Assembly: GCA_949751835.1 (NCBI GenBank)
Contig: CATKHK010000114.1
Coordinates: 1-64,000 of the forward strand
From: Blepharisma japonicum
Taxonomy: Eukaryota; Ciliophora; Heterotrichea; Heterotrichida; Blepharismidae
Direction: 5' to 3'
DNA: 64,000 nt
This document shows, in pieces, positions 1,083-42,022 of the stretch. The position numbers were made by a program, and so were the translations under genes. The first letter of the stretch is position 1. Every line of letters starts with the position of its first letter. The notes under the pieces are model-generated. The model saw only the letters and a program-made list of their open reading frames with translations, was not told where the DNA came from and made no database searches.

Positions 1083-1233
1083 GCAAGGATACTGACCTAA
1101 AGTTATGGATTCCTTTAGTTGCTTCATAATGCCAAACTAAGTGCTCACTGCACATATAAGCTTGTGGAGAAGTACAATTGCATGAATATTCAACATCTCG
1201 ATCGCACCCAGACATAGAGCACTTGTTGCCCAT
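1083..1233 (-). pseudogene. 5' fragment of a B-box-TPR gene
   Basis: Read from 1233 downwards this gives a start and B-box-like zinc finger opening MGNKCSMSGCDRDVEYSC, then TSPQAYMCSEHLVWHYE, closely matching the first 50 or so residues of the gene at 21876-23879 (same unusual MGNK start). The match ends near 1083 with no TPR array behind it, so this is a truncated copy. The 5' flank at 1234-1310 also matches the flanks of the intact family members. Confidence 0.8.
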
Positions 1234-1429
1234 TTATCTATAATTTTATATTTCATCTTATGTTCTAAGAAATTTATGGATTATTTTGAAATCTACAAAT
1301 TTATTAAAGCCTATGTAAATTTTCTAATCTTTATAATTAATTGCTTCTTCCCTTACTTGGCAAAAAGTCCATTGAAAAATCTTTGAAAATTTATCGTAAG
1401 GGGAAGATAACCCGATGTGCGGCTGATGG

Positions 1430-1744
1430 CTTACTTTTTTATATGTGCTGATGACTCTTTAACCAGTAGCTTGAACTAGGAATATATCTCTGCTTTTCAT
1501 TAACAGCTATAATAAGAAGGTTTAATTCTAGCTTTTCGTAAGGAAATTTCTTAGATCCTTATCGCCAAAAGGACGGCCAGGTATCTTTGCATTAACAAGT
1601 ATAGAATCTGAGCCAAAACTTACCAAGATGGGCATAGCAATGAGCTTACCTTGACTTAACTGAGTTTCCCTTTAATTTCTGCCATAACGCTAAAAAAACG
1701 AACTAAGAGGCCAGGCTTGTTTATTCTTTATTTTGATGAATGTA
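1430..1744 (-). pseudogene. Decayed coding relic, unknown family, second copy at about 8812-9130
   Basis: On the minus strand, short frames read like protein: one has SQGKLIAMPILVSFGSDS followed by ILVNAKIPGRPFGDKDLRNF, another has KLELNLLIIAVNEKQRY then SSYWLK. The second matches the relic at 8812-9042 (KLELRLF, KHRYSS, YWLK). Frames are broken several times. I do not recognise the family. In both places the relic abuts the left part of a plus-strand Kelch-TPR copy at an AAGGTCTTGC-like sequence. Confidence 0.5.
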
Positions 1745-2600
1745 AGGTCTTGTAAGATAAGAATTATGCATTTAAGAGCTAAGCATATGTAATCTTAAAC
1801 AGATCCTATAATGATCCAGGAGCAGAACAAAATTTTAGAAGAATTTGCTAATTGTATCAAAACCAAAACTCTTCATTCAGCCCATCACTAAGCGCAGCTT
1901 ATCAAGAATACGTAAGTGTTTATCATAAGATTATATATCGTTATAATTTTTGGCATCAGATGGGAGAGGAAGTTTATTCATTTATGGTACTGAAAATGAA
2001 AGAGAAGAAGTAAAATTACAGAAAATTCCCGAAGAATGGTATGAGGCTAGCGAATCTGCTACTCTAATTTCAAATGGTGAATTATTCTGTATCATTAAAA
2101 ATTTAGAAGACTTTTTTCGTAGTTTTATTGCCTTCATAATGAATCGAAACTTAGCAATTTGTCCTGATCATTTAATAAGAGAGAATTTTTATAACTATTA
2201 ATTTTATAATCAAATCTATGTATAATTTTAAATAATTAAATGATCACAATATTTTGATTAAAGTGTAATAGAAAGGTAAAATTGTCGAAAACTTAAAGAT
2301 TAGGGTGAGGACCATGCTCAAATCAACTTCCAAATGGCGAGCTATTTCACCTTGTTGTAATTCAGCATTTGATACTGCGCTAATTGCTGATAAAAATTAC
2401 AAATTCTGAGTACTACCATCTGGCCCTGTTTTATTTTTTTCTATGAAGAAATCGGACATTAATCTAAAATTTGAATGCAAAGAGAGAGCGACTTACCAAA
2501 CTAAGGATTAATAGTCATAAAGTATTATCGCTCTATTAAATATATTCAAAATCTCTAGGAGAATATTATCTTTTTAGAGTAAAGCGGTGCATAATATATG
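1745..2600 (+). pseudogene. Kelch-TPR gene remnant
   Basis: Homologous to the 5' half of the gene at 9143-11818. The run at 1950-2201 contains ASDGRGSLFIYGTENEREEV and KIPEEWY, matching the start of the Kelch-like region there. A second partly overlapping match at about 2320-2470 repeats the segment with PNGELF-like and VLPS-like residues, so two fragments seem joined. Frames are interrupted and there is no TPR part. From 2600 to 2927 I see only AT-rich sequence and the 3' flank of the next gene. Confidence 0.7.
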
Positions 2601-2927: not shown

Positions 2928-5918
2928 TTATGCAAGTTTTTTTGCTTTTTCAAGTAATTCATTTGCTTCTTGATTTTTGCCTAAACTTCTTAATGCTCTC
3001 GCTTTATTTGTATAATAAACGGCATCATTAGGACTGATTATGATTGCATGATTATAATATTTCGCTGCTTCTTTATATTTCTGTTCATTTTCGAAAATTA
3101 TTCCTATTCCATTGTATGCATCATCTTCATTTGGGTCTATTCTAATTGCTTCATTGAAGCATTCCATAGCTTCATCTCATCTTTTAATATGAATTAGAGC
3201 ATTACCTTTATTTCTATAATAAATTGCGCAATTTTGATCTTTTCTGATTGCGTTATTATAATATTCCACTGCTTCTTCATATTTCTGATATCTGTCTAAA
3301 ATTATTCCTATTCCATTGTATGATTTAGCATGATTTGAGTCTATTCTAATTGATTCACTGTAACATTCCATAGCTTCATATCATCTCTCTAAACTTATAA
3401 GAGCATTTCCTTTATTAAAATAATAAGGAGGCGAATCCGGATCGAATCTAATTGCATCATTAAAATATTTCACTGCTTCTTCATAGCTCTTATTATTTTC
3501 TAAAATTACTCCTATTCCGTTGTATGCTGTAGCTTGATTTGGATCTAATTTAATTGCTTCATTGTAGCATCCCATAGCTTCATCACTTCTCCCTAAACAT
3601 GATAAAGCATCTCCTTTATTAATATAATAAGGAGCAAAATTGGGATCAATTCTGATTGCATGATCGTAATGTTTCAATGCTTCTTCATACCTCTTTACAT
3701 TGTAATTAAAGATATCTCCTATTCCTTTGTATGCACTAACTTTATTTGGATTTATTCCAATTGCTATATTATAGCAGTCAATAGCTTCATCTATTCTCCC
3801 TAGCAATCTAAGAGCACTGCCTTTATTAATATAATAAATAGCCTTTTTGGGATTGATTCTAATTGCACGATTTCAATATATCACTGCTTCTTCATATCTC
3901 TTTTTATTACATAGAATTATTCCTATTTCATTATATGCTCTAACATAATTTGGGTCTATTCTAATTGCTTCATTATAGCATACCATAGCTTCATCTCTTC
4001 TCCTTAACTCTCTAAAAGCATTCCCTTTATTAAAATAGTACAAAGCACAATTAGAATCTATTTTGATTGCATTATTGTAAAATTCCACTGCTTTTTCATA
4101 TTCATTTTCATTGTAAAAGATATTTCCTATTCCATCGTATGCATCAGCATTGTTTGGATCTAATTTAATGGCTTCGTTATAAGATACCATAGATTCATCT
4201 CTTCTCTTTAGCTCTTTAAAAGCATTCCCTTTATTAATATAATAAGAAGCATGATCGGGTTTTATTCTAATTGCATGATTGTAATATTCCACTGCTTCTT
4301 CATATCTCTTATCATCGTAAAAGATATTTCCTTTTCCATTGTATGCATCAGCATCATTCGGATCTATTCTTATTGCTTCATTGAAGCACTCCATAACTCC
4401 ATCTTTTCTCCCTAACTCAGATAGAGCAACTCCTTTATTTGTATAAAAAAGAGCACAATTTGGATCAATTCTAATTGCATCATTAAAATATTTCACTGCT
4501 TCTTCATATCTCTTATCTTTTAGTAATATATTTGCTATTCTATAGTGTGCATAAGCTTCATTTGGATCTATTTTAATTGCTTCGTTATAGCATTCTATAG
4601 CTTCATCTGCTCTCCCTAACTCGTTAAGAGCATCTCCTTTATTAACATAATAAATTACACAATTGGGATCGATTTTGCTTGCATCATTGTAATATTTTAC
4701 TGCTTCTTCATATCTCATATCATTAAAAAAGATATTTCCTAATCCATAATAAGCATTATCTTCTTTTGGATTGATTCTAATTGCTTCATTATAGCATTTC
4801 ATAGCTTCATCTCTTCTCCCTAAATCAACTAGAGTATTGGCTTTATTTGTATAATAAATAGCACAACTGGGATTGATTCTGATTGCATCATTATAATATT
4901 TTAGTGCTTCTTCATATCTCTTATCAAGGCATAAAACCAATCCTACTCCATTGTTAGCATCAGCATCATTTGGATCTTTTGTAATTGCTTTATCGTAACA
5001 TTCCTTTGCTTTTTTATTCATATTTAAAATTAAATAAGAATTCCCTTTGTTTGCATAATAAATTGCATAATTGCGGTTGAGGTGAATTGCTTTGTTAAAA
5101 TATTTTATTGCCTCTTTGCACCTCTTTGCATTATTAAATAATTCGCCTATCCTGTTGAATGCTATATCTTCATTTGGACTTATTTTGATAGAATCATGAT
5201 ATTTATAAAAGAGTAGGCATTTTCAGTAAACCCTGATTGAGTGTCTGAAATAAGGATTTTCTGAAGAATCTACATTCTGAGCCTTCAACAGAGTTAATTG
5301 CTCATCAATTTTGTTTTCATTCAGATCATGTACTTTGAGGAGATTTTCTATTTTCAAAATTCCTTCACCTAATTTACTATTTAGTAATTTTTCATCAATG
5401 AATCATTTAGCCATTTCCTGAATTTCTTCACTTAGCCCACAGAAAAATTCAGTATTGATAAAAGAAACATATGAAATCATTTCTTTAAATTTTTTAATAG
5501 CATCATTAGGTTGTAAAGCTAGTAGGCTCAAAATTGGATCAGTCTCTGATTTTGATAGTTTTTTCGTCTTAAAAATTTTGTCGTAGTAGCTATTTATTTT
5601 TATTAAATCAGATGCTAGCTCTTTGGTTAGCTCTTTAACAATATTTTCTAAACTTCCAATTATTTGGTGAAAGGAAGTCATTAGCTTATTTTTTAATTCA
5701 GCTTTTTTAGAATTTTCTTCAATAAGAAACAGAAGGACTGCTTCTTTAGTCTCTTTAATCTTATACCAAGATATTGGTTTGGAGTTATAGGTGCTGCCAG
5801 TTAATTTTGAATGGCTCTTTAAGTGCTTATTACACATATAAGTTTCGGGAGAAGTACAATCGCATGAATATTCAGGATCACGGCTGCATCCAGGCTTAAA
5901 ACATCGCTTAATATCCAT
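2928..5918 (-). CDS. B-box-like zinc finger / TPR protein, long-linker class
   Basis: A 996-residue protein when UGA is Trp; under the standard code it would be split at 3177, 3381, about 3873, 5247 and 5403, but no TAA or TAG interrupts the frame and it ends in TAA. Residues about 1-45 form a B-box-like zinc site (C-x4-C-x7-C-x-C-x7-C-x2-H-x3-H, start MDIKRCFKPGC). A helical segment of about 180 residues follows, with IEENSKKAELKNKL, then about 22 TPRs. The TPRs alternate between two forms, YYNDAIRIDPNCALYYTNKG-like and CYNEAIRLDPNEDAAYNGIG-like, giving a 68-residue double repeat. TPR arrays are protein-binding scaffolds and the B-box suggests an adaptor role; no partner can be named. Closest relative here is the gene at 17345-19933. 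Confidence 0.85.
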
Positions 5919-6006: not shown

Positions 6007-6633
6007 TTATGCTAAATTGTTTGCTTTTTCATATAATTCATTTGCTTCTTGTATTTTACCTATACTTTCAAGAGCTAATCCTTTATTTCTATAATAAATC
6101 GCACAATTGGGATTGATTTTGATTGCATCATCGTAATATTTCACTGCTTCTTCGAATCTCTGATCATTTTTTAAAATATTTCCTATTCCATTGTATGCAC
6201 CATCTTCATTTGGATCTAAGCTAATTGCTTCATTATAGCAGTCCATAGCTTCGTTTTTTCTCCCTGATGATCTAAGTGCATCTCCTATACTTCTATAATA
6301 AATCGCACAATTGGGATTGATTATGATTGCACCATTGTAATATTTCACTGCTTCTTCATATCTCTTTTCATTTTCTAAAATATTTCCTATTTCATTATAA
6401 GCAGCATCATCATTTGGATCTAATCTAATTGCTTCATTGTAGCAGTCAATAGCTTCATCTCTTCTCCCTAACAATCTAAGAGCATTTCCTTTATTTCTAT
6501 AATAAAGAGTATAATTGGGATCGATTATAATTGCATCGTTGTAATATTTCACTGCTTCTTCGTATCTCTTATCATTGGAAAAGATAATTCCTATTCCATT
6601 GCATGCGCTATCCTCATTTGGTATAATCTAACT
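6007..6633 (-). pseudogene. 3' part of the next B-box-TPR gene, displaced by a 1-nt frameshift
   Basis: Six TPRs and the standard family ending (GKIQEANELYEKANNLA, TAA) follow directly on the gene at 6591-8420, but in another frame. At about 6625-6633 the usual family sequence TTTGGATCTAATC reads TTTGGTATAATC, one base short. Without this change the two parts would form one protein of about 800 residues. It could be a real mutation or an assembly error in repeated DNA. Confidence 0.75.
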
Positions 6634-8420
6634 GCTTTATTATAGCACTCCATAGCTTCATCTCTTCTCCCTAATGATCTAAGAGCGTCTCCTTTATTTG
6701 TATAATAAAGAGCACAATTGGGGTCGATTTTAATTGCATCATTAAAATATTTCACTGCTTCTTCGTATCTCTTTTCATCTTTTAAAATATTTCCTATTCC
6801 ATTGTATGCACCATCATCATTTGGATCTAATCTAACTGCCTGATTATAACAGTCAATAGCTTCATCTCTTCTCCCTAACAATCTAAGAGTATTTCCTTTA
6901 TTTGTATAATAAAGAGCATAATTGGGATCGATTCCAATTGCATCGTTGTAATTTTTCAATGCTTCTTCGTATCTCTTATCATTGTGAAAGATATTTCCTA
7001 TTCCATTGTATGCACCATCCTCATTTGGATCTAATATAACTGCCTGATTTAAACAGTTCATAGCTTCATCTCTTCTCCCTAATGATCTAAGTGTATTGCC
7101 TTTATTTCTATAATAAAGAGCACAATTAGGATTGATTTTAATTGCATCATTAAAATATTTCACTGCTTCTTCGTATCTCTTTTCATTTTTTAAAATATTT
7201 CCTATTCCATTGTATGCACCATCCTCATTTGGATCTAATCTAATTGCTTTATTATAGCACTCCATAGCTATATCTCTTCTCTCTAAATCTGATAGAGCAT
7301 TCCCTTTATTTGCATAATAAAGAGCGCAATTGGGATCGATTCTAATTGCATCGTTGTAATATTTCACTGCTTCTTCGTATCTCTTATCATTGTAAAAGAT
7401 ATTTCCTATTCCATTGCATGCGCTATCCTCATTTGGATCTAATCTAACTGCCTTATTATAACAGTTCATAGCTTCATCTCTTCTCCCTAATGATCTAAGT
7501 GCATCTCCTATACTTCTATAATAAATCGCACAATTGGGATTGATTATGATTGCATCATTGTAATATTTCACTGCTTCTTCATATCTCTTTTCATTTTCTA
7601 AAATATTTCCTATTTCATTATAAGCACCATCCTCATTTGGATCTAATCTAATTGCTTCATTATAGCAGTCCATAGCTTCATCTTTTCTCCCTAACAATCT
7701 AAGAGCATTTCCTTTATTTCTATAATAAAGAGTATAATTGGGATCGATTCTAATTGCATCGTTGTAATATTTCACTGCTTCTTCGTATCTCTTATCATTG
7801 GAAAAGATATTTCCTATTCCATTGTATGCGCTATCCTCATTTGGATCTAATCTAACTGCCTGATTATAGCAGTTCATAGCTTCATCTCTTCTCCCTAAAT
7901 CTGATAGAGCATTCCCTTTATTTCTATAATAAAGAGCACAATTGGGATCGATTCTAATTGCATCGTTGTAATATTTAACTGCTTCTTCATATCTCTCATC
8001 ATTGTAAAAGATATTTCCTATTCCATTGTATGCACAATCATCATTTTGATCTAATCTAATTGCTTCATTATAACAGTCTATAGCTTCATCTCTTCTCCCT
8101 AACTCTGATAGAGCATGCCCTTTATTTGTATAATAAAGAGCACAATTGCAATTGATTCTGATAGCATAATTGTAATAATTCTCTGCTTCTTCGTATCTCT
8201 TATCATTGTAAAAGATATCACCTATTCCATTATAAGTAGCATCTTGATTTCGACCTAATGTAGCATACGAGGATAATAGCCTGAAGTTATGGATTCCTTG
8301 AGATACTTCATAATGCCAAACTAAGTGGTCGCTGCACATATAAGCTTGTGGAGAAGTGCAATTGCATGAATATTCAGCATCTCGATCGCACTCAGTCATA
8401 GAACATTTCTTAATGTCCAT
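6591..8420 (-). CDS. B-box-like zinc finger / TPR protein, short-linker class, C-terminus altered by frameshift
   Basis: 609 residues starting MDIKKCSMTECDRDAEYSC with all zinc-ligand Cys and His in place, then LSSYATLGRNQDATYNGIG leading straight into TPRs, without the helical linker seen at 2928-5918. About 16 TPRs follow. The last residues (RLYQMRIAHAME, TAG) come from a 1-nt deletion near 6630, after which family-like TPR sequence continues in another frame to 6007. The start matches all other family members. The 120-bp spacer upstream faces the plus-strand Kelch-TPR 5' end at 8541. Confidence 0.75.
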   Translation of the reverse strand: MDIKKCSMTECDRDAEYSCNCTSPQAYMCSDHLVWHYEVSQGIHNFRLLSSYATLGRNQDATYNGIGDIFYNDKRYEEAENYYNYAIRINCNCALYYTNKGHALSELGRRDEAIDCYNEAIRLDQNDDCAYNGIGNIFYNDERYEEAVKYYNDAIRIDPNCALYYRNKGNALSDLGRRDEAMNCYNQAVRLDPNEDSAYNGIGNIFSNDKRYEEAVKYYNDAIRIDPNYTLYYRNKGNALRLLGRKDEAMDCYNEAIRLDPNEDGAYNEIGNILENEKRYEEAVKYYNDAIIINPNCAIYYRSIGDALRSLGRRDEAMNCYNKAVRLDPNEDSACNGIGNIFYNDKRYEEAVKYYNDAIRIDPNCALYYANKGNALSDLERRDIAMECYNKAIRLDPNEDGAYNGIGNILKNEKRYEEAVKYFNDAIKINPNCALYYRNKGNTLRSLGRRDEAMNCLNQAVILDPNEDGAYNGIGNIFHNDKRYEEALKNYNDAIGIDPNYALYYTNKGNTLRLLGRRDEAIDCYNQAVRLDPNDDGAYNGIGNILKDEKRYEEAVKYFNDAIKIDPNCALYYTNKGDALRSLGRRDEAMECYNKAVRLYQMRIAHAME

Positions 8421-8540: not shown

Positions 8541-9142
8541 ATGGAACTTATAACTAAAAGCCAAGCCAGCTCGATTAATCTTCAACTTAATTCAGCTGTC
8601 GAAGATCTTAATTGTGAGTCAAAACTAACTCAGTATGAGCTCAATCAAGGTCTTGCACACATTAATCTTGATTACGATTAGACGCCAATTTATTGCTTAG
8701 GTAGTAAACAAAGATTTTCTAAGTAGTTTAATCTCTTTTAACTTTTTATTTTCTTTATCAACTCAAATGATTCTTCAGATGGGATATTTGAGTGTCATTC
8801 TTCATCTTCTATCAATCGTCAAAGGCAAGGGTAGTCCGAAGTATGTCTGATTGGGCTTTTTTTGCTTTTAAAGCATATGGTGGATACGCTATGAATATCT
8901 GATCCTTTAGCCAGTATCTTGGATTAGAAGAATATCTATGTTTACCATTAGCAGCTACATTAAATAGACGTAATTCTAGTTTTAGATAAATCCTTGCATT
9001 GGGAATCATAGAAACTAAGACAAAACATATCTGGGTTCGCATTAATATGAGCTAAAATTGACTCTTGGCTGATTTTCCCTTTCGCCTCCACCATAACGCT
9101 GAGAAGATTGCATGAAGAGGTCAGGTATTAGCCATTATTTTT
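8541..9142 (+). pseudogene. Displaced 5' end of the Kelch-TPR gene, with a 503-bp insert
   Basis: ATG at 8541 opens MELITKSQASSINLQLNSAV and reads to ELNQGLA, then stops at TAG about 10 codons later. The frame GLA resumes at 9155-9160 as LA followed by SQELSIQELNAK. Taking out 8658-9160 joins GGTCTTGCA to AGCCAAGAA in frame. The copies at about 29286 and 38265 show exactly this uninterrupted junction. So the original gene began at 8541 and is now cut off from its body, unless the insert is removed from RNA or DNA. Confidence 0.65.
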
Positions 9143-9160
9143 ATGCATATAAGGCTTGCA
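8658..9160. repeat. 503-bp insert flanked by short direct repeats
   Basis: Bounded by AAGGTCTTGCA on the left (about 8647-8657) and AAGGCTTGCA on the right (9151-9160). It carries a broken minus-strand coding relic (8812-9130: WPLHAIF, then KLELRLFNVAANGKHRYSS and YWLKDQ). Its left end is also found at about 35680 (GCGCATTAATCTT) and its right half at about 1430-1744, but copies at 29286 and 38265 lack it. I see no terminal inverted repeats and no TA-only boundary. It may be an insertion with target duplication, or the other copies may have lost it by recombination between short repeats. Confidence 0.5.
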
Positions 9161-11818
9161 AGCCAAGAACTAAGCATTCAAGAGCTGAATGCTAAAACGC
9201 ACGCAATCTTAAACAAATCCCATAATGATCCAGCAGCAGAGCAAGATTTCAGAAGGATTTGTCATTTGTATGAAAGCCAAAGCTCTTCTTTAAGCCCATC
9301 ACTAAGCGCAGCTTATCAAGAATACGTCACTGCTTATCATAAGATTACATCTCTTTATCTTTTTGTGGCATCAGATGGGAAAGGTAGTTTATTCATTTAT
9401 GACACTGAAAATGAAAGAGAGGAAGTAAAATTGCTTAAAATCCCAGAAGAATGGTACAGCGTTAGCGCATCTGTTATTCAAATTCCAAATGGCGAACTAT
9501 TTTGTGTTGGTTGAAATTTACAACCCTCTTCTATCGAATTAATTGCCTTCATAATTGATAGAAACTCTGCAATTCGAGTACTGCCATCTAAAACGCGTCA
9601 TCGGTTCTCGTCAGCTATCTATTTAAACAAAAGTATCTATTGATTTGGATCAGTAGATGATCAAAATGGTAATACTCTTTGTCATAAATTCAATTTGGAT
9701 GAAAATCGATGAATTAACTTAGTTCCAATGCCGGATGTTGGCAGCAGCTGCCACAGCGTAGCATTTAATGGGAATATATTGATTTCTGGATACAATAAAA
9801 ATATTTTGCAGTATTCAATTGATATAAACTCTTTCTCAATAATTCCTTATGACTTTACAAAGTACAAAAGGAAAATTCTGATAAAATCAGAAGAGAGAAT
9901 ATACTTAATTGAGTACTTAGGATTTATCTATGAAAGCGACATTATGAATGAGTATACTTGGAAGCAAATAGCAAAATCAATAATTACTGAAGATGATTTA
10001 TATAATTGTGATTATAATCAGTTTCACCTTTCATATAATAAGGCAGGAACTTTTATTTCAACTATTGATCAGCTATCCATCAGGGAATATTACAAGTTTG
10101 ATTTAAAACAAAAAACTCTCATTCAAAATGGTTACTATGATAATCATGGAACTGTTAGAAGAGTAGGCTCAGAGATTGAAGTAATGAATTGCAAAAACCA
10201 AATATTTGAGCTCGATATTAATCATGCTGCTTTCAAGAGTAACGACTCTCTTCATAATCTAGGCAGCAAGCTTTGATTAATAAAACCTTGCATGGAGGAA
10301 ATCAAACTTAATCCTTCTGCTGAAGATTACAATAAAAAAGGTAATGCTTTTTCTTATTTGGGTAGACACCTTGAAGCAATAGATTGCTATAGCGAAGCAA
10401 TTAAACTCGATCCTTACAATAATGAATATTATGATTATAAAGGGCATGCTCTGTATAAGTTAGGCAGAAAGCGTGAGTCTATCGAATGCTATAATCAAGC
10501 CTTAAAACTTCGTGGCCATGATAATAATAATGCTGTATCTGCCTATATTAATAATGGGGAAAATAGTTTGTATGATGATTTGGGTAAAAAAATTGAGACA
10601 ATTGAGTTCTATAACGAATCAATCATGTGCGATCCTGATAATGCTATTGTCTACGTAAAAAAAGGCGATATCCTGCTTGAATTGGGCAGAATTCTTGAAG
10701 CAATAGAATGCTACGATGAAGCAATCAAGCTTGATTCTGATTATAGTTCTGCTTATTTTGGCAAAGGGTGTGCTTTGTATAAGTTAGGAAGAAATGTTGA
10801 AGCAATTGAGTCATATAATGAGACGATCAAACTTAATCCTGAGGATAATATGGCTTATCGTAGCAAAGGTGATGCTCTATTGGATATGGATAGATTTCTG
10901 GAAGCTGCGGATTCCTACAAAAATTTTTTCAAACTTGGCCGCCTAAGAGAAATTTGTTACAAAAATTTCAAATATTCTCCCGATGAATTTTTAAGAATAC
11001 TTATAAATATAAATGCTTGTGACGAAGCAATCAAACTGGATCCTTGCAATGCTGATAATTATTTAAAGAAAGGAAATGGGTTAGGTAAAATATTCAAAAC
11101 TCTTCAAGCAATACAATGCTATAACGAAGCAATCAAACTAGATTCTGAGAATGCTGCTTCTTACTCTAATAAAGGAGATTCTCTGTATAAATTAGGCAGG
11201 CATTTTGAAGCAGTAGACTGTTATAATGAAGCAATCAAAATTGACCCTATTAATTCTTTTGTTCATAATCAAAAAGGATTAGCTTTGTTTGAATTGGATA
11301 GAAAGTCTGAAGCAGTAGAGTGCTATGACAAATCAATCGAGCTTAACCCTCAATTTGAAGATGCTTATTTCAACAAAGGAAACGCACTAAACTCTTTGGG
11401 CAGATGTCTTGAAGCAGTTGAGTGTTATAGTGAAGCAGTCAAATTTAATCATTTATATGCAGATGCTTACTTCAATAAAGGTTGCACTTTGGAGTATTTA
11501 GGAAGGAATCTTGAAGCAGTTCAGTGCTATGAGGCAGCCCTCGAAATCAGGGAGAATTGAGATGCTTGCATTGTACATAAAGGATGGGCTTTGCATAAGT
11601 TGGGCAGGAAGTTTGAAGAAATAGAATGCTATGACAATTTAATCGGTTATCGTCGAAGTCGCTGTAACAATCCTGATATTTACATTTATAAAGGAAATAC
11701 TCTTTATGATATGGATAGAAAGCCTGAAGCAATGGAATGTTATGGCAGAGCAATAGAAATAGCTCTTGGCTTTGTTCATGAGTTTTATTCAATAGACGAC
11801 CTATGAAGGTGTTTATAA
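9143..11818 (+). CDS. Kelch-like / TPR protein
   Basis: 891 residues with UGA as Trp; in-frame TGA occurs at about 9512, 9641, 9711, 10274, 11558 and 11804, and the stop is TAA. Residues about 1-70 are helical (SQELSIQELNAK). Residues about 75-370 look like a Kelch-type beta-propeller (GSLFIYDTE, PNGELFCVGW, SIYWFGSVDD, NRWINLVPMP). From residue 384 about 14 TPRs follow (YYDYKGHALYKLGRKRESIE). The TPRs are more diverse than in the minus-strand genes. The last residues are probably off-frame, because family-like sequence continues to about 12150 in another frame. The start used here is the first ATG after the 503-bp insert; the ancestral start was at 8541. This is the only Kelch-TPR copy here with a long open frame. 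Likely a scaffold or adaptor; no partner is visible. Confidence 0.7.
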
Positions 11819-12380: not shown

Positions 12381-13982
12381 TTATGCTAAATTGTTTGCTC
12401 TTTCATATAATTTATTTGCTTCTTTTCTTTTACCTATACTTTCCAGAGCAAATCCTTTATTTTTATAATAAATTGCACAATTGGGATCGATTCTGATTGC
12501 ATCATTGAAATATTTGACTGCTTCTTTATGTCTCCTTTCATTTGTCAAAATTATTCCTATTCCATTGTATGCGCTACCCTCATTTGGATCCAATCTAATT
12601 GCTTCATTATAGCACTCCAGAGCTTCATCTCTTCTCCCTAACAATATAAGAGTATCTCCTTTAATTGTATAATGAAGAGCACAATTAGGATTGATTCTGA
12701 TTGCATCATTAAAATATTTGACTGCTTCTTCATATCTCTTATTATCATAATAGATATTTCCTATTATATAGTAAACAGCATCAGCTTCATTTGAATCTAA
12801 TCTAATTGCTTCATTATAGCACTCCAGAGCTTCATCTCTTCTTCCTAACAATTTAAGAGCATCTCCTTTATTTGTATAATAAAGAGCACAATTGGGGTCG
12901 ATTCTGATTGCATCATTAAAATATTTGACTGCTTCTTCATATATCTTATCATTGTAATAGATATTTCCTATTCCATTATATGCATCATTATTATTTGTAT
13001 CCAATCTAATTGCTTCATTATAGCACTCCATAGCTTCATCTCTTCTCCCTAGCAATCTAAGAGTATTTCCTTTATTTGTATAATAAAGAGCACAATTGGA
13101 GTCGATTCTGATTGCATCATTGTAATATTTGACTGCTTCTTCATATCTCTTATCATTATAAAAGATATTTCCTATTCCATTGTATGCATCATTATGATTT
13201 AGATCCAATCTAATTGCTTCATTATAGCACTCCAGAGCTTCATCTCTTCTCCCTAGCAATATAAGAGTATTCCCTTTATTTTTATAATAAAGAGCACAAT
13301 TGGGATTGATTCTAATTGCATCATTGTAATATTTGACTGCTTCTTCATATCTCTTATTATTATAAAAGATATCACCTATTCCATTGTAACCAGCGTCTTG
13401 CCTTGAATCCAATCTAATTGCTTCATTATAGCACTCCATAGCTTCATCTCTTCTCCCTAACAATATAAGAGTATTCCCTTTATTTGTATAATAAAAAGCA
13501 GGATTAGGATTGATTCTGATTGCATCATTGTAATATTTGACTGCTTTTTCATATCTCTTATTATTATAAAAGATATTTCCTATTCCATTGTATGCATCAT
13601 TATGATTTGGATCCAATCTAATTGCTTCATTATAGCACTCCATAGCTTCATCTCTTCTCCCTAGCAATATAAGAGTATTTCCTTTATTTTTATAATAAAG
13701 AGCACAATTGGGATTGATTCTGATTGCATCGTTGTAGTATTTCTCTGCTTCTTCATATCTCTTATTATTATAAAAGATTGAACCTATTTCATTGTAGCCA
13801 GCGTCTTGCCTTGAATCCAATCTAATGTATAAGGACACGAGTCTGAAGTTATGGATTGCTTCAGTTGCTTCATAATGCCAAAGTAAGTGCTCACTGCACA
13901 TATAAGCTTGTGGAGAAGTGCAATCGCATGAATATTCAACATCACGATTGCACCCTGTCATAGAGCATTTCTTAATGTCCAT
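12381..13982 (-). CDS. B-box-like zinc finger / TPR protein
   Basis: 533 residues, one uninterrupted frame, TAA stop. MDIKKCSMTGCNRDVEYSC and TSPQAYMCSEH carry all the zinc-ligand positions; RLVSLYIRLDSRQDAGYNEIG leads into about 14 TPRs in the alternating double form. It ends with the family tail GKRKEANKLYERANNLA. It lies at the left end of a tandem unit repeated at 15374-16973 and 33635-35440. This paralogue looks functional; its neighbours downstream (14358-15240) do not. Confidence 0.85.
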   Translation of the reverse strand: MDIKKCSMTGCNRDVEYSCDCTSPQAYMCSEHLLWHYEATEAIHNFRLVSLYIRLDSRQDAGYNEIGSIFYNNKRYEEAEKYYNDAIRINPNCALYYKNKGNTLILLGRRDEAMECYNEAIRLDPNHNDAYNGIGNIFYNNKRYEKAVKYYNDAIRINPNPAFYYTNKGNTLILLGRRDEAMECYNEAIRLDSRQDAGYNGIGDIFYNNKRYEEAVKYYNDAIRINPNCALYYKNKGNTLILLGRRDEALECYNEAIRLDLNHNDAYNGIGNIFYNDKRYEEAVKYYNDAIRIDSNCALYYTNKGNTLRLLGRRDEAMECYNEAIRLDTNNNDAYNGIGNIYYNDKIYEEAVKYFNDAIRIDPNCALYYTNKGDALKLLGRRDEALECYNEAIRLDSNEADAVYYIIGNIYYDNKRYEEAVKYFNDAIRINPNCALHYTIKGDTLILLGRRDEALECYNEAIRLDPNEGSAYNGIGIILTNERRHKEAVKYFNDAIRIDPNCAIYYKNKGFALESIGKRKEANKLYERANNLA

Positions 13983-23879: not shown

Positions 23880-23956
23880 TTATCTATAATTTTATATTTT
23901 ATCAGATTTTCTAAGAAATTTATAGATAATTTTGAAATCTAAAAATTTATTAAAGC

Positions 23957-30044: not shown

Positions 30045-30304
30045 CTTTGGTGAAACAAATTATTTTGATATTGATTTCTAGTCGCTATGATGCGGACAAA
30101 ATTAGAAGCAAAAGAAAAAGTGGTAAAATAAAATATTAAAAATTCTTGAATTTCGGCTAAAAGCTGAAACCAAGTAAGAATGCTGCAGTCAAAGAAATGC
30201 AGCAAATTGGAAATAAGCTTTTGAGCTTCAGAGAGCATTAATATCTACTGCCGCCATCTGACAATCTATGCAATATAAATAATTTAAGAAATAACCGTAA
30301 AAAT
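30045..30304. repeat. Block shared with 42042-42330
   Basis: TTTGGTGAAACAAATTATTT and AAAGAAATGCAG occur in the same order in both places. In each copy it sits just 3' of a tRNA ligase gene or pseudogene, so it is the ligase 3' flank. No gene is seen in it. Confidence 0.65.
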
Positions 30305-32385
30305 CTATCTACTTTTAATTAATGATTGTACTTTTTGGTTACTCCTTTCAAAAACCATTGTGGATACAGCTTTAGTGCACATATGTACACTCTCTTTCAT
30401 TAAATTTCCATGGCTCCTGCTTATATTATCCTGCAAATTAGATTGCTCAAGCACATCATTGCTTAATTTTGCAGGCCATTTCCCTAATAGTAATGTAACG
30501 TGAGGATTTTTATTTTCAATCCTAAAATGCCCATCAGTCGACACAGTAGAGGCACAAATAAGTGTTTGTAGGACATATATGTATTGAGAAAGCCTCAATG
30601 CACATTCATTATTTTCTCGAAATTCTCTATTTATATGAAAATCATAAAATAATTTAATTTTAATTTTTCCTTATTCCCCCATATGAAAAATGACGTCAAA
30701 TGCAGAGAATTTGTGAATTTTTATTTATCTGAAACTCTACCAGCCGGGGAGTAAATTCTTACCAGAATTGGCGAGCTCTTTTAAGTCATTTTGTATTGCC
30801 TGCTCTTCTGGGAAGCTTGAAGTCAATGCATCTAATGCAGACGTGATAAATGGTATTAAAGAAGTCCCAAAATACTCTTCAAGATCTAGACCAATATAGA
30901 CAGGGATTTTTTTTGTCTCAGCTTTTTTTCCTTCAATTATTTTATCTTCTTCTTGGATTTTTTGTGGAATTTCTTTGATTTCTTCTCGGATTTTTTGAGC
31001 TGGCTGGATTTCTTTAGTTTTTCAATTAATTTTTGTGAAATTTGTTTTGTTTCTTCAGCTATTTTTATTTCTTCTTCTGGCGACAGAAGGCCAATTAATT
31101 TTCAAGTTCTCTTTCTAAAGTTTCTCCAATACTAATATGAGGCATGGTATATCAATTTTTTCAATTTCTTTAATAATCCCTCTAATGCATCCTCCATTAG
31201 AAGTCTTGCTAATTGCATAGCTCTGTGGCACATCCATCATCAAATTCTCAAAGTTTTTACTGATTTTTATTTTCATCGACAAATGGGATCTTTAAAAATG
31301 TGACTTCTTTTGATAATGAACTTCCTTCATCAAGAAGAAATTTCTATAAAGCATGCACATCATCTTAGCAACTCACCCTTTTTTCCAAGCTACCAGCCAG
31401 CGTCTCATGGATGTCTCTATTTTTTATCCTCAGCAAGTATGCTAGTAGAACTTCCAGATTTATGGAATAACTCCCTCATTCTTACAAATAACTAAAAGAT
31501 TAAGCAATATCTTTGACAATCTAGGACCATTGCTATAAATTTTGCATTTAATTTGTTCATGATCCTTTGATAAATTTGGTGGATGATATTTGTCTAAATA
31601 TATAATTTTCCTCGAAAATTCTTGTCTTAAAGCTGATATAATTTCATCCTGGAAATTTAGAATTTTTTTGGCTGTTTTATCATTGAGAACTTGCACGTCA
31701 GTGATTTCATGCTCTTCTATACATGTATTATATAATTCTTTTCGATTTTTATCAGAACTTATAGAAAAAAACGCAAATCCATTTCTCTCTGCAATTTCTT
31801 GAAAAACATCTACCAGCTTTTTTTTTCCTTTGCGGGAATGTCAAGAGGAACAATAACGCAAGTCCCTTCAGGATAAAACACTTTTGGCTTTGGAAATGGA
31901 AAAAGCAGCCTAAACGTTTCTTCAATTAACCTTTCATAATAAATTAAGTCTACCATGTGAACACTTCTTTATGAAGTTCCTGAGATAAAAGATGGCATTA
32001 TATAAATTTTTATGGCTTCTGAGTTTTAGTTTTTAATACAACTTTTGGCATTTAATGGAATTTCTTCAGTCGAATTCTTCATTTCTTGGAGCTTATTTAA
32101 GGTTTCTGGGATTGAAGAAGTAATATATACCCAGCAAAAATGGCAAGATCATGCAATTGAATTTAGGATTCCGGGGAACATTATTAAAGATTTGAAGAGT
32201 AGATTATAATGGGTTTGTAGCTTTGTATTCATATTTTATATGTGAGCACCCAAGAGTGTTAGAGATACCTTTTAATTGTGTTATTGAATAATAGTAAGGA
32301 GGAGTCAATAATGCTATGAACTTATAATTTGTAATATGATATAAGATGCAGGTATTTTTATGGTTTTTAAAATTTTATTTATACT
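30305..32385 (-). pseudogene. Truncated, decayed tRNA ligase gene copy
   Basis: Parallel to 42331-44405 of the intact ligase. The 3' end is best preserved (30305-30598: HFRIENKNPHVTLLLGKWP, second 2H motif). Further up, traces of the kinase region remain (31460-31696, KIIYLDKYHPPN). Frames are interrupted many times, and similarity stops near 32385, so the nucleotidyltransferase half is absent. It is clearly non-functional as a ligase. Confidence 0.85.
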
Positions 32386-33634: not shown

Positions 33635-35440
33635 TTATGCTAAATTGTTTGCTCTTTTATAGCATTCATTTGCTTCTTGTATTTTACCTATTCTTTCAAG
33701 AACAAATCCTTTATTATTATAAAAAATTGCACAATTGGGATCGAGTCTGATTGCATCATTAAAATATTTCACTGCTTCTTTATATCTCCTTTCATTTTTC
33801 AAAATTATTCCTATTCCATTGTATGCGCTACCCTCATTTGGATCTATCATAATTGCTTCATTATAGCACTCCATAGCTTCATCTCTTCTTCCTAAATCTA
33901 ATAGAGCATCTCCTTTAATTGTATAATGAAGAGCACAATTGGGATTGATTCTGATTGCATCATTAAAATATTTGACTGCTTCTTCATATCTCTTATTATC
34001 ATAATAGATACTTCCTATTACATAGTAAACAGCATCAGCATCATTTGGATCTAGTCTAATTGCTTCATTATAGCACTCCATAGCTTCATCTCTTCTTCCT
34101 AACAATTTAAGAGCATCTCCTTTATTTGTATAATAAAGAGCACAATTGGGGTCGATTCTGATTGCATCATTGTAATATTTGACTGCTTCTTCATATCTCT
34201 TTTCATTTTGTAAATTATTTGCTATTCCATTGTATGCACCACCCTCATTCGGATTTAATCTAATTGCTTCATTATAGCACTCCATAGCTTCATCCATTCT
34301 CCCTAGCAATATAAGAGTATCACCTTTATTTGTATAATAAAGAGCACAATTAGGATTTATTCTGATTGCATCATTAAAATATTTGACTGCTTCTTCATAT
34401 CTCTTATTATCATGATAGATATTTCCTATTCCATTGTATGCATCATTATGATTTGGATCCAATCTAATTGCTTCATTATAGCACTCCATAGCTTCATCTC
34501 TTCTCCCTAAAACTGATAGAGCGTTTCCTTTATTTGTATAATAAAGAGCACAATTAGGATTGATTCTGATTGCATCATTAAAATATTTGACTGCTTCTTC
34601 ATATCTCTTATTATTATAAAAGATATTTCCTATTCCATTGTATGCATCATTATGATTTGGATCCAATCTAATTGCTTCATTATAGCACTCCATAGCTTCA
34701 TCTCTTCTCCCTATATCTGATAGAGCATTTCCTTTATTTGTATAATAAAGAGCACAATTAGGATTGATTCTGATTGCATCATTAAAATATTTGACTGCTT
34801 CTTCATATCTCTTATCATTTTTAAAAATATTTCCTATTCCATTGTATGCATCATTATGATTTGGATTCAATCTAATTGCTTCATTATAGCACTCCATAGC
34901 TTCATCTCTTCTCCCTAGCAATATAAGAGTCTTCCCTTTATTTGTATAATAAAGAGCACAATTGGGGTCGATTCTGATTGCATTATTGTAATATTTATCT
35001 GCTTCTTCATATCTCTTATTATCATGATAGATATTTCCTATTCCATTGTATGCATCATTATGATTTGGATCCAATCTAATTGCTTCATTATAGCACTCCA
35101 TAGCTTCATCTCTTCTCCCTAGCAATATAAGCATATTTCCTTTATTTGTATAATAAAAAGCACAATTAGGATTGATTCTGATTGCATCATTAAAATATTT
35201 GACTGCTTCTTCATATCTCTTATTATTATAAAAGATATTTCCTATTCCATTGTAGCCAGCGTCTTGCCTTGAATCCAATCTAATGTATAAGGGCACTAGC
35301 CTGAAGTTATGGATTCCTTCAGTTGCTTCATAATGCCAAAGTAAGTGCTCACTGCACATATAAGCTTGTGGAGAAGTGCAATCGCATGAATATTCAACAT
35401 CACGATTGCACTCTGTCATAGAGCATTTCTTAATGTCCAT
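33635..35440 (-). CDS. B-box-like zinc finger / TPR protein
   Basis: 601 residues in one frame, TAA stop. Start MDIKKCSMTECNRDVEYSC, TSPQAYMCSEHLLWHYE, then about 16 TPRs, tail KIQEANECYKRANNLA. Closest to the genes at 12381-13982 and 39819-42022: it shares the LYIRLDSRQDAGYNGIG entry with the first and the ECYKRANNLA-type tail with the second. Confidence 0.85.
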   Translation of the reverse strand: MDIKKCSMTECNRDVEYSCDCTSPQAYMCSEHLLWHYEATEGIHNFRLVPLYIRLDSRQDAGYNGIGNIFYNNKRYEEAVKYFNDAIRINPNCAFYYTNKGNMLILLGRRDEAMECYNEAIRLDPNHNDAYNGIGNIYHDNKRYEEADKYYNNAIRIDPNCALYYTNKGKTLILLGRRDEAMECYNEAIRLNPNHNDAYNGIGNIFKNDKRYEEAVKYFNDAIRINPNCALYYTNKGNALSDIGRRDEAMECYNEAIRLDPNHNDAYNGIGNIFYNNKRYEEAVKYFNDAIRINPNCALYYTNKGNALSVLGRRDEAMECYNEAIRLDPNHNDAYNGIGNIYHDNKRYEEAVKYFNDAIRINPNCALYYTNKGDTLILLGRMDEAMECYNEAIRLNPNEGGAYNGIANNLQNEKRYEEAVKYYNDAIRIDPNCALYYTNKGDALKLLGRRDEAMECYNEAIRLDPNDADAVYYVIGSIYYDNKRYEEAVKYFNDAIRINPNCALHYTIKGDALLDLGRRDEAMECYNEAIMIDPNEGSAYNGIGIILKNERRYKEAVKYFNDAIRLDPNCAIFYNNKGFVLERIGKIQEANECYKRANNLA

Positions 35441-35948: not shown

Positions 35949-36296
35949 CTATATTAAATTGTTAGCTCTTTCATATAATTCTTTTGCTTCTTGCTCTTTG
36001 CCTATACTTTTAAGAGTATCTTCTTTATTTCTGTGATAAAGTGCACAATTGGGATTGATTCTGATTGTATCATTGTAATATTTCACTGCTTCTTCGTATC
36101 TCTTATCATTTTCTAAAACAACTCCTATTCCATTGTATGCACCAGCAAGATTTGGATCTATTCTAATTGCTTCAATGTAGAATTCCATAACTTCATCTTT
36201 TCTCTCTAAATTAGCTAGAGCATTTCCTTTATTTATATAATAAGTATAATCATTGGGATTGATTCTGATTGCATCATTGTAATATTTTACCGCTTC
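35949..36296 (-). pseudogene. 3' fragment of a long-linker B-box-TPR gene
   Basis: Third copy of the 3' end seen at 14358-15238 and 17345-18225 (IRIDPNLAGAYNGIGVVLE, tail KELYERANNLI). It is cut at about 36296 (TTACCGCTTC, then unrelated sequence). From 36297 to 36470 there is a short segment I cannot match to anything else here. Confidence 0.8.
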
Positions 36297-36473
36297 GGAC
36301 TGCAGCTTTTGTGGATTATTTTTGCCGCATCACAAACCGTTATTTCATTAGCATTCGAAACTAATTTCGCTTTTTAGCATAACACTAAATACTAGTCTAA
36401 TTAATGAAACAAGCATTTATCATCTTTTCTATTATAAATCACGGAGTTCCCATTCTGCTTATTTCCTTTAGTA

Positions 36474-37672
36474 TTAACCTTCCACAAATCCTTTATTTTT
36501 ATAATAAGAAGCACAATTAGGATTGATTCTGATTGCATCATTAAAATATCTCAGTGCTTGTTCATATCTCTTATCACTGTTAAAGATATTTCCTATTCCA
36601 TTATACGCTTCACTATCATTTGAATTTACTCTAATTGCCTGAAAATAATAGTTAATAGCTTCATCTCTTCTCCCTAACTCTGACAAAGCACATCCTTTAT
36701 TTCTATAATAATAATCACAATTTGGATTGTATCTGATTGCATCATTGTAATATTTAAGTGCTTGTTCATATCTCTTATTATTGAAAAAGATATTTCCTAT
36801 TTCAATGCATGCTTCAGCATCATTTGGATCTAATAAAATTACTTTATTATAACATTAAATGGCTTCCTCTATTCTCCCTAACAAACGAAGAGCACCTCCT
36901 TTTTTCTTATAGCAATAAGCACAATTGAGCTCAATTCTGACTGCATCATTGTAATATTTCAGTACATCTTCATATCTCTTATCATTTTCTTTAATAATTC
37001 CTATGCCAATGTATGTATAAGCATCGTTTGGGTCTAATCTAATTGCTTCATTATAGATTTCCATAGCTTCATCTCTTCTCCCTAAACATCACAAAGCATA
37101 TCTTTATTTCTATAAATAATCAGCACAATTGGGATTGATTCTGATTGCATCATCGTAATATTTGACTGCTTCTTCATATCTCTTATCATTATAAAAAATA
37201 TTACCTATTCCATAGTATGCATAAGCTTGGTTTGGGTCTAATCTAATTGCTTCATTATAACATTCCATAGCTTCATCTCTTCTCCCTAAATTTGATAAAG
37301 CATTTCCTTTGTATAAATGATAATAATAATTATTGGGATTGATTCTGATCGCATCATTGTAATATTTTACTGTCTCTTTATATCTCTTATCATTGTAAAA
37401 GATATTTCCTATTTCACTGTATGCTAAATCTTCATTTGGATCTAATTTAATTGCCTGAAAATAGCAGTTAATAGCTTCATCTCTTCTCCCTAACTCTGAC
37501 AAAGCATTTCCTTTATTTGCATAATAAAAACCACAATTGGGATTGATATTTATTGAATCATTGTAATATTTCACTGCTTCTTCATATCTCTTATCACAAT
37601 AAAAGATAATTCCTATTACGCAATATGCTATCGCGTCATTTGGATCTAATCTAATTGTTTTATTGTATAAAC
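36474..37672 (-). pseudogene. TPR gene fragment, frame interrupted
   Basis: About eleven TPRs. A TAA replaces the usual Glu codon near 36857, and near 37085-37115 indels leave TAG and TAA in the frame. There is no zinc-finger start and no family tail. The TPRs carry local variants (AINCYFQAIKLDPNEDLAY) not common elsewhere, so this may derive from a member otherwise lost. Confidence 0.75.
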
Positions 37673-38142
37673 ACTTATAGACACCAAAACATCTAATTTA
37701 AAATATACTGTATTGATAATAACAGTAATAATAAATGATATTTACCATTACTATTATAGCCAAATCATTATTCTGAATAACTAGCTAAAAAATGTTATGC
37801 GTGGCTTCCCCTCCACGACTGATAGAAAAAAGCGCACCTATAATCATAAACTTATTCATCAAATAGAAAAATCGAAAAACAATAATTGATTTCCAAGATA
37901 TCAAATATAACAGTTTGAAGATAAATGTATCCTTTTTGCAGTATCCTTTGAATACTCATGAATAGTCGTTAATTTTCTCATTCCTAATCTCCCTTCATGA
38001 AGTAGCAGATAAATTTACTCTTAGAAGGTTTGCAATAAGTTAATATATAAAATTTATATTATAGAATAAAGGAGACAACGTAAACATAAGCATTTTCTTA
38101 TCAGGAAATATATACAAACTAAGATTAATATTTCTAGGTTTA
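37673..38142. other. AT-rich spacer, no gene recognised
   Basis: No frame of note. The last 30 bases resemble the Kelch-TPR promoter (TATTTCTAGGTTTATAATGAAG). Confidence 0.4.
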
Positions 38143-38712
38143 TAATGAAGATCATTACTAAAAGTCAAGCCAGATTAATTAATTTCAGCTTAATTCAGCT
38201 CTCGAAGATCTTTATATTGCATCAAGCCAACTCACTGTAAGCTCAATTAAGGTCTTGCTAGCCAAGAATTAAGTATCTAAGAGCTAAATTCTAAAACATA
38301 TGTAAAGAGCCCATAATGGTCCTAAGAGATCAAGATTTCAGGAGAGTTGCCAATTGTACGAAAGTCAAAATCCCTTTATTAAAATTAAACTTAGTTAGAA
38401 GTTATAAAATAGTCATTAAACTATCTAAAGCATATTATGAGATTAGATCTTTATGACCTCACTAATTGGAAAGATAAATAATGAATGATTTCATTCCAAA
38501 ACAACTAGCACTCTGCCAAATATTATATCTATTTTAGCAGCAGTAATTGCTTTGGACATGCAGAGGATAAAAATGATGTAGCTCTCTCTTTAGATTAAAA
38601 TCGATGGATTAGCTGAGAGCACCAATGCCGATGGTGGCTATAGTTGCCACAGCATAGCCTTTTATGGGAACATTGATTTCTGGATATAATAAAACTATAT
38701 TGCATCATCAAT
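38143..38712 (+). pseudogene. Kelch-TPR gene remnant without the 503-bp insert
   Basis: Opens MKIITKSQARLINFSLIQL. The junction at about 38265 (AAGGTCTTGCTAGCCAAGAA) is uninterrupted, as at 29286. Fragments of the propeller part follow (GGYSCHSIAFYGNIDFWI-like near 38630-38680). It ends where a ligase fragment begins, near 38712. Confidence 0.7.
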
Positions 38713-39260
38713 AGATATAAACATAATGTGAGGCTTTTTATTTTCAATCTTAAAATGCCCATTGGTCGGCACAGCAGAAGCACAAATCAGTCTTTGTGGG
38801 ATATGATTAAGCTCAGTGCACATTCATTATTTTCTCGAAATTCTCTATTCCAAATTATATTATTTCCAATCAAATAGAAATAATATTAAATTATGAAAAA
38901 TTAAAATTTCAGACATATTGTATTAAAATGCATATAATAATTTGATTTAACTTTTCCTTATTTCCTCCTATGAAAAACGACATCAAATGCAGAGAAATTG
39001 TGGATTTTCATATTATCTGAAACTCTACAAGCAGGGAAATAAATTCTTACACCAGAATTGACGAGTTCTTTTAAGTCATTTTGTATTGCCTGCTCTTCTG
39101 GGAGGTCCTCAGCAAACACATCTATGCAGAGGTGATAAAAGAAATTATAGATTTTCCCGAAATACTCTTCAAGATCTAGACCAAGATAAACTGGAATTTT
39201 TTTGTCTCAACTAATATTTCTCAATAGTTTTAGCTTCTTATTTGATTTGTGGAATTTCTT
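38713..39260 (-). pseudogene. Second truncated tRNA ligase copy
   Basis: Matches about 42500-42970 of the intact ligase: the 3' third with GHFKIENKKPH, and the LDLEEYFG region read from about 39180. Shorter and more decayed than the copy at 30305. A 50-60 bp AT-rich segment around 38850-38930 is absent from the other copies. Confidence 0.75.
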
Positions 39261-39818
39261 TTAATATAGAAAAAAATTATCGATTTCAAGCTCCAGATTT
39301 GTTTAAATGTTATAATTAACTCCTCTTTTAAAAATAGACTCAGATTCTGCAAATGGCACCTCTGCTTCTATTGTGAATCTAAATGCAATGTAGAGGGTTT
39401 AGAAAGTTCGGTTGAAACATGAAAAGTACCCGAGAAAAATGGAGATTTAAACTTTGGGATAAAAAATGGAAATGATGATGTGGAGTAATGCATCTAAAAG
39501 AAGGTACAAATAAAAGTGTGTAATCTCAAGTTGAGAGACATTTGAAACAAAAGTATCGCAAAGTGATAAATAAGAATCAGATTCATCTATGAAATGACTG
39601 TAGCATTTATGACGCTGAAATAAATCGAGTTATTGATAGATTTAGAGAAAACTGGAATGCTAGTGCGAGTAGAAATAGACGTTGTAGTACATGGATATAA
39701 TAAGTTATTTATTTACTATATCTTTGTTGAATTATTATATTATATTAAAAATAAATTATCAATATGAGCTAAAAAACTGTTGCTAAATTCCTATTGTTAT
39801 ATTAAAATAAATTTAGAA
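39261..39818. other. Spacer with the second copy of the unidentified block
   Basis: About 39345-39700 duplicates 33008-33400 (see that entry). The last 100 bp are the conserved B-box-TPR 3' flank. No intact gene. Confidence 0.5.
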
Positions 39819-42022
39819 TTATGCTAAATTGTTTGCTCTTTCATAGCATTCATTTGCTTCTTGTATTTCTCCTATACTTTCCAGAGCAAATCCTTTATTA
39901 TAATAATAAATTGCACAATTGGGATCGATTCTGATTGCGTCATTGAAATATTCCACTGCTTCTTCATATCTCTTTTCATTTTTCAAAATAATTCCTATTC
40001 CATTGTATGCACCATCCTCATTTGGATCTATCATAATTGCTTCATTATAGCACTCCATAGCTTCATCGATTCTCCCTAACTCTGACAAAGCATCTCCTTT
40101 ACTTCTATAATAAAGAGCACAATTGGGATCGATTCTAATAGCATCGTTGTAATATTTCACTGCTTCTTCATATCTCTTATCATCATAATAGATATCACCT
40201 ATTCCATTGTAAGCAGCATCATCATTTGGATCTAATCTAATTGCTTCATTATAGCACTCCATAGCTTCATCTCTTCTCCCCAGATAACTAAGAGTATTTA
40301 CTTTATTTTTATAATAATGAGCATAATTGGGATCGATTCTGATTGCATCATTGTAATATTTCACTGCTTCTTCATATCTCTTATCATCATAATAGATATC
40401 ACCAATTCCATTGTATGCACCATCCTCATTTGGATCCAATCTAATTGCTTCTTTATAGCACTCCATAGCTTCATCTCTTCTTCCTAGCAATCTAAGAGTA
40501 TTTCCTTTACTTGTATAATAAATAGCACAATTAGGGTCGATTCTGATTGCATCATTAAAATATTTCACTGCTTCTCCATATCTCTTTTCATTTTTCAAAA
40601 TAATTCCTATTCTATTGTATGCACCATCCTCATTTAGATCTAATCTAATTGCTTCATTTAAGCACTCCATAGCTTCATCTCTTCTCCCTAGATTACTAAG
40701 AGCATTCCCTTTATTTTTATAATAAAGAGCACAATTGGGATTGATTCTGATTGCATCATTGAAATATTTGACTGCTTCTTCATATCTCTTATCATCATAA
40801 TAGATATCACCTATTTCATTGTATGCACCATCCTCATTTGGATCTAATCTAATTGCTTCTTTATAGCAATCCATAGCTTCATCGATTCTCCCCAGATAAC
40901 TTAGAGCATTCCCTTTATTTTTATAATAAAAAGCACAATTGGGATCGATTCTGATTGCATCATTGAAATATTTGACTGCTTCTTCATATCTCTTATCATC
41001 ATAATAGATATCACCTATTCCATTGTATGCATTGCCTTCATTTGGATCTACTCTAATTGCTTCTTTATAGCAATCCATAGCTTCCTCTCTTCTCCCTAGA
41101 TAACTAAAAGTATTCCCTTTATTTGTATAATAAAGAGCACAATTGGGATTGATTCTGATTGCATCATTGAAATATTTGACTGCTTCTTCATATCTCTTAT
41201 CATCATAATAAATATCACCTATTCTAATGTATGAACCATCCTCATTTGGATCTACTCTAATTGCTTCATTATAGCACTCCATAGCTTCATCTCTTCTCCC
41301 TAGATATCTAAGAGTATTCCCTTTATTTCTATAATAAAGAGCACAATTAGGGTCGATTCTGATTGCATCATTAAAATATTTCACTGCTTCTTCATATCTC
41401 TTTTCATTTTTCAAAATAATTCCTATTCCATTGTATGCACCATCCTCATTTGGATCTAATCTAATTGCTTCTTTATAGCAATCCATAGCTTCCTCCCTAG
41501 ATAACTAAAAGTATTCCCTTTATTTTTATAATAAAGAGCACAATTGGGATTGATTCTGATTGCATCATTGTAATATTTGACTGCTTCTTCATATCTCTTA
41601 TCATCATAATAGATATCACCTATTCTATTGTATGAACCATCCTCATTTGGATCTAATCTAATTGCTTCATTATAGCACTCCATAGCTTCCTCTCTTCTCC
41701 CCAGAGATCTAAGAGCATCCCCTTTATTTTTATAATAAAGAGCACAATTGGGATGTATTCTGATTGCATCATTGAAATATTTGACTGCTTCTTCATACCT
41801 CTTATCATTATAATAGATATTTCCTATTTCATTGTAGCCAGCGTCTTGCTTTAAATCCAATTCAATGTATAAGGGCACCAGCCTGAAGTTATGGATTCCT
41901 TCAGTTGCTTCATAATGCCAAAGTAAGTGCCCACTGCACATATAAGCTTGTGGAGAAGTGCAATCGCATGAATATTCAACATCACGACTGCACCCTGCCA
42001 TAGAGCATTTCTTAATGTCCAT
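39819..42022 (-). pseudogene. B-box-TPR gene with a 7-nt deletion
   Basis: The 5' frame (41456-42022) has a perfect zinc finger (MDIKKCSMAGCSRDVEYSC) and four TPRs, then goes out of frame (GRKLWIAIKKQLD, TAA). The 3' frame (39819-41486) continues with about 16 TPRs to the tail IQEANECYERANNLA. The break is at about 41490: the family sequence CTTCCTCTCTTCTCCCTAG (as at 41087) is CTTCCTCCCTAG, seven bases shorter, between short CCTC repeats. It is otherwise undamaged, so the loss is recent or is a sequencing or assembly artefact. Confidence 0.8.

Follow-up and report, generated by a model that had tools for sequence, protein, structure and literature searches.

Repeat receptors that evolve fast are known from fungi, plants and animals alike, and TRIM proteins combine a zinc finger, a long helix and a variable C-terminal domain in a single chain. 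For the TPR repeats of Podospora NLR proteins, shuffling of repeat units together with change at specificity positions has been described (PMC4986451). For the 90-bp-exon LRR genes of Tetrahymena, a role in recognition was proposed by the authors, and most of the genes were reported to be under purifying selection (PMC6564038). The locus analysed here is an array of zinc finger-TPR genes in the ciliate Blepharisma japonicum, located in a window that comprises the first 64 kb of a contig (C114; 123,255 bases) in an assembly of 45.2 Mb and 224 contigs. Direct observations concern the architecture of the genes, the duplication of their repeat units and the contrast in substitution rate between the faces of the TPR part. 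The multigene family as a whole is, in the reading to which we incline, a diversifying repertoire of binding proteins, in which selection keeps the scaffold and the positions of the groove change.

Gene content of the array and its surroundings

Translation with TGA as Trp resulted in long minus-strand frames, which the standard code breaks (ORF comparison in the window). Ciliate code 6 (TAA and TAG as Gln) was rejected, as the longest frames then scatter on both strands, whereas TGA as Trp joins the TPR frames. Neither tRNA genes nor Rfam families were matched within the window. Ordinary neighbours of the array are a kinesin motor gene (50954-52783, plus strand) and a DUF229/sulfatase-like gene (54863-57028, plus strand).

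Between positions 1063 and 42025, the minus strand contains ten finger-bearing gene starts (1224, 5918, 8420, 13982, 16973, 19933, 23870, 29050, 35440 and 42022) and three headless fragments. Six of the starts belong to open frames, three to frames with a single small frame change and one to a truncated copy, which bears out the inventory of an earlier note on this DNA (about six intact members, frameshifts of 1, 2 and 7 nt, and fragments). Two architectures were distinguished, type A with a finger, a spacer of ca. 200 residues and TPRs, and type B with TPRs immediately after the finger. The open type A genes are 2928-5918 (996 aa), in which Tyr replaces the finger's last His ligand, and 17345-19933 (862 aa), and the open type B genes are 12381-13982 (533 aa), 21876-23879 (667 aa), 23957-29050 (1697 aa) and 33635-35440 (601 aa). 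The 1697-aa frame stops about 14 residues short of the C-terminal cap present in sister copies. Single frame changes, with sizes judged by eye from the frame pieces, were found in the type B genes 6007-8420 (1 nt), 15459-16973 (504 aa; 2 nt, near the 3′-end) and 39819-42025 (7 nt). Introns of 15-16 nt were ruled out by eye as their explanation, because the changes are small losses relative to sister copies. The truncated finger copy (1063-1233, finger match at 1224) has 57 codons. Of the headless fragments, 14359-15262 is 97.0% identical in DNA to the 3′ third of 17345-19933, the closest of the seven pairs compared, and the other two are TPR relics, one in several frames (20752-21802) and one in pieces (35949-37697).

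The 34-residue helical-pair repeats fit TPR models (TPR_1 match with an E-value of 1.8e-27 at 41456-42025), and Tandem Repeats Finder returned units of 102 and 204 nt across the genes of the array. TPR numbers run from 14 for the 533-aa protein, whose structure model shows 28 helices beginning at residue 59, to about 48 for the 1697-aa protein (length divided by 34), close to the range of about 13 to 48 given earlier.

The members had been described as lying side by side on one strand. This is true of the ten fingers, all on the minus strand, but kelch-TPR sequence of the plus strand is interleaved with them: a relic in two frames (1786-2159), a gene head-to-head with that at 8420 (9056-11818), a relic in several frames (29261-30014), and partial DNA copies of a finger-gene upstream region and the kelch-TPR gene (38124-38722). 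The kelch-TPR gene has its N-terminal piece at 8541-8681, ca. 500 nt away from the remainder (from about 9155). This separating stretch (about 8651-9160) is missing in the copy at locus L016 on contig C138, and part of it recurs, by eye, at 1583-1744. At L016, both members of a head-to-head pair are long and open, the finger-TPR frame with 939 aa and the kelch-TPR frame with at least 996 aa, a minimum since it extends to the locus edge. Among 42 fingers for which 150 nt or more of upstream sequence was present, a kelch match was head-to-head in eight, on the same strand in two and absent in 32, as counted up to 2.5 kb upstream, the full 2.5 kb being absent for some fingers. The idea that finger and kelch genes are paired head-to-head as a rule was therefore rejected, with only 8/42 fingers so arranged; these are next to a kelch gene or relic at 1221, 8405 and 29035 in the window and at loci L014, L016, L018, L024 and L027. 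As an arrangement of a minority, it recalls the paired receptors of plants.

The array is adjoined by a gene of 1186 aa (42331-45891, minus strand), for which Pfam gave only AAA_17, below its cut-off, and whose motifs we take to recall tRNA ligase. Its 3′ part was copied into the array at 30040-32381 and 38724-39261, with 82-87% identity. Duplications thus took along pieces of the next gene, 30040-32381 being 84% identical to 42044-44402.

Zinc finger head and distribution of the family

The family finger has the spacing Cx4Cx7CxCx7Cx2Hx3Hx7/9H. It was matched in 45 frames with E-values below 0.01, and 42 of these meet the strict spacing. All eight ligands are kept in the alignment of the 42, the strict spacing itself being part of their selection, and to this extent the finger is constant, as had been claimed. 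Excluded were 2928-5918, for its Tyr, as well as L022:4895-5440 and L017:4127-5578, the start of which is cut or altered. A weaker match (L017:6955-8649, E-value 0.22) is without one Cys.

The earlier label of B-box did not withstand any test, and the finger was rejected as a B-box. The zf-B_box profile (PF00643) matched 0/42 fingers even at an E-value of 10, the finger profile had no match among PDB sequences, hhalign of the finger with four genuine B-boxes from this genome gave 0.5%, and the genome's 65 B-box places all lie on contigs other than that of the array. The order of the ligands presumably resembles that of cross-brace fingers, with different spacing. After the finger, a helix is predicted at residues 54-118, in a model of finger and spacer with a mean pLDDT of only 47.7.

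The array belongs to a much larger family, dispersed over at least 201 places on 93 contigs. These were obtained by merging the hits of two protein queries, a finger query (best 150 of 394 candidates scored) and a spacer query (best 150 of 286), by the rough rule of no more than 900 nt between hits on one strand. As the best 150 of each query were merged, 201 is a lower bound. A neighbour within 10 kb was found for 115/201 places, and 17 of the 87 places on contigs C1-C77 are no more than 10 kb from the contig start. The telomere repeat CCCTAACA, in three consecutive copies, had 77 and 91 matches on the two strands of the assembly versus 0 for the control. Together with TGA as Trp, a repeat of this kind probably points to Blepharisma. 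Among the telomere-bearing contig ends listed, 5 of 13 have a family place at a distance of at most 10 kb (C5, C6, C11, C17 and C36; hand count).

Members share a plan of finger, often a helical spacer, and a following part made of TPRs, of a kelch-like domain or of the two together; frames of the fetched loci included TPR arrays, coiled coil with kelch-like domain, and kelch with TPR. At the extreme end of contig C6, a finger-TPR frame (L018:3-1547, minus strand) enters the stretch 'AEFLSRPNNRELEMDFRATC', typical of kelch genes, and this junction is either a fusion or an assembly fault. A finger gene on contig C199 (L022:5673-7604) has a long repeated coiled-coil run (Pfam tropomyosin, E-value 1.6e-12). 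No description of a finger/TPR/kelch family was found in the literature searched, which excluded the Blepharisma somatic genome paper.

Repeat units and substitution rates of the TPR faces

The TPR part was modelled as a superhelix with a pLDDT of about 90. Its best match among solved structures was O-GlcNAc transferase (7yeh_A, E-value 1.7e-21), and its closest folds were O-GlcNAc transferase, SPINDLY, Ski3, APC/C and BBSome.

In total, 217 double-TPR units, each 68 codons long and identical to the consensus at 28 or more positions, were taken from 47 frames and assigned to group B (165 units, from the window and contigs C57, C133, C138, C112 and C6) and group II (52 units). Between units and their nearest relatives, the median DNA identity was 0.907, i.e. 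the repeats are near-identical tandem repeats. The nearest relative was in the same frame for 84/217 units and in another frame for the others. Within the 1697-aa gene, identities are 96 and 95% between units 11-12 and units 21-22, 96% for the match of units 8-9 and 95% for that of units 18-19. Both the blocks and the nearest units in other frames support the repeat gain and recombination that had been suggested.

The concave, ligand-binding positions of a TPR are given as 2, 5, 9, 12, 13, 33 and 34 (PMC1261162). In both groups, the highest entropies included positions 2, 9, 12, 13 and 34, and position 5 of the second TPR. Variation was also seen at position 6 in the first TPR (2.30 and 2.82 bits) and, for group B, at position 14 (2.17 bits). 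For the rates, units were paired, each of them once only, with the nearest unit of their group (greedy pairing, recombination inside units being ignored). The codon model fitted to the pairs took its mutation frequencies from fourfold sites, and its synonymous rate was shared. In group B (57 pairs), omega was 1.16 at concave and 0.36 at other positions (LRT 176.7 for two omegas versus one), and in group II (19 pairs) 2.20 and 0.41 (LRT 169.4). Tested against 1, the concave omega gave an LRT of 3.35 in group B and 29.3 in group II. Positive selection at the concave positions is thus clear in group II and marginal in group B.

With different-gene pairs only, concave omega was 1.19 (B) and 2.55 (II). 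For pairs with at most 31 differences, the values of concave, convex and remaining positions were 1.35, 0.49 and 0.38 in group B and 2.55, 0.43 and 0.49 in group II, when the exposed convex control comprised positions 15, 16, 18, 19, 22, 25, 26, 29 and 31, our own choice. Single positions deviated: the concave position 33 was slow in the two groups (0.38 and 0.43), position 5 had 0.93 in group B, and the convex positions 24 and 25 reached 1.75 and 1.98 in group II. A simple count with kappa 1 gave 1.61 at concave versus 0.45 at other positions in group B and 1.57 versus 0.64 in group II, the concave values being lower (1.40 and 1.28) with another site count. With kappa 1, among 2000 random draws of 14 positions, the concave value was attained once in group B and 172 times in group II. 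For units of the window (43 pairs), concave omega was 1.35 (interval 1.05-1.75) versus 0.38, with an LRT of 4.5, and with pairs of at most 31 differences (32 pairs) the concave interval was 0.93-1.65, spanning 1. Pairs with a frameshifted copy (16) had 1.05 at concave positions and kept 0.38 at the others, and from this it follows that the frames broke recently relative to the divergence of the units.

These rates bear on the alternative of neutral birth and death, according to which unequal exchange expands the family and a little-used groove drifts near-neutrally under a purifying selection that keeps the fold. The numerous broken copies, the tandem duplication of units and the group B concave omega near 1 would all suit it, and drift of an unused groove stays a rival because the excess over 1 in group B is marginal. 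Nevertheless, we consider it unlikely in view of the group II concave omega and of the 0.38 that the other positions of frameshifted copies still have. Moreover, exposed convex positions remain at 0.43-0.56 with all pairs, so exposure by itself does not explain the concave rates.

Possible role of the family and comparison with known systems

TPR arrays often act as scaffolds, and the closest folds listed above would agree with members that organise the cell's own partners, e.g. cortex or cargo proteins, the groove differences following those partners. This is improbable, as recent close copies with decay, and the group II omega above 1, suit changing partners more than a fixed internal set. 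It is highly improbable that misassembly or sequencing errors made the copies or the frame changes: the window begins at a contig end where no telomere repeat was seen, and repeats may have interrupted assembly near the contig starts where family places are common, but the compared finger genes are 10-18% different in DNA and relatives are spread over 93 contigs; a single frame change may still be a sequencing error. Assembly duplicates, as envisaged in the earlier note, are unlikely, as judged from the assembly, because the four compared finger-gene pairs are only 90.0, 88.4, 86.5 and 81.9% identical in DNA.

In the favoured reading of a diversifying binding-protein repertoire, the constant N-terminal finger would be an anchor or signalling head, and the long helix after it may drive self-association in many members. 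The variable part would be the TPR superhelix, the kelch-like domain or both, with a concave TPR groove that probably binds varied ligands. Diversity would arise as 204-nt (two-TPR) units are duplicated, lost and exchanged among genes, and as whole genes are duplicated in tandem, some copies decaying. Selection would keep the scaffold and permit or drive change at the concave specificity positions. The proteins are presumably intracellular, and their ligands, instead of being internal partners, may come from outside or be non-self. A recognition or scaffolding role had earlier been called speculation; of the two, recognition gains indirect support from the concave-position rate contrast, and it is, at the level of sequence, the best reading of a constant head, a changing TPR groove and unit shuffling. 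More tentatively, the roughly 200 or more genes might form a ciliate recognition system (immune, symbiont or self/non-self), with an unclassified zinc finger replacing the STAND NTPase, interchangeable TPR grooves and kelch-like domains, and unit shuffling under positive selection. As the family is defined, with a constant head, and the groove positions can be tested singly, the question of a recognition repertoire in ciliates is directly testable.

The best solved-structure match likens the TPR part to that of O-GlcNAc transferase, yet the modelled 533-aa protein has no transferase domain. With TRIM proteins, the family shares the order of zinc finger, long helix (here a low-confidence prediction) and variable C-terminal domain. 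It differs in that the proteins scanned had no B-box match and no RING, the latter among the families listed for eight proteins (for one protein, 25 of 59 families). Like the Tetrahymena 90-bp-exon LRR genes, it is a very large, tandemly duplicated, repeat-based ciliate family near chromosome ends, but the repeats are TPR instead of LRR, and a shared finger head is unmentioned in the excerpts of that paper drawn on here (PMC6564038). From fungal NLRs, the array family differs by its zinc finger head, and neither NACHT nor NB-ARC was found in two sets of seven and eight proteins scanned; the whole genome had 12 NACHT and 7 NB-ARC matches, none on the contig of the array. Because the head differs and the proteins scanned have no NTPase, the family is filed neither as NLR nor as TRIM. 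With the fungal NLRs of highly conserved WD, ANK or TPR repeats, as far as described in the excerpts of that source, it has in common near-identical tandem repeats, their exchange within and between genes, a varying repeat number, and rapid change at positions of the concave face of the TPRs (PMC4986451).
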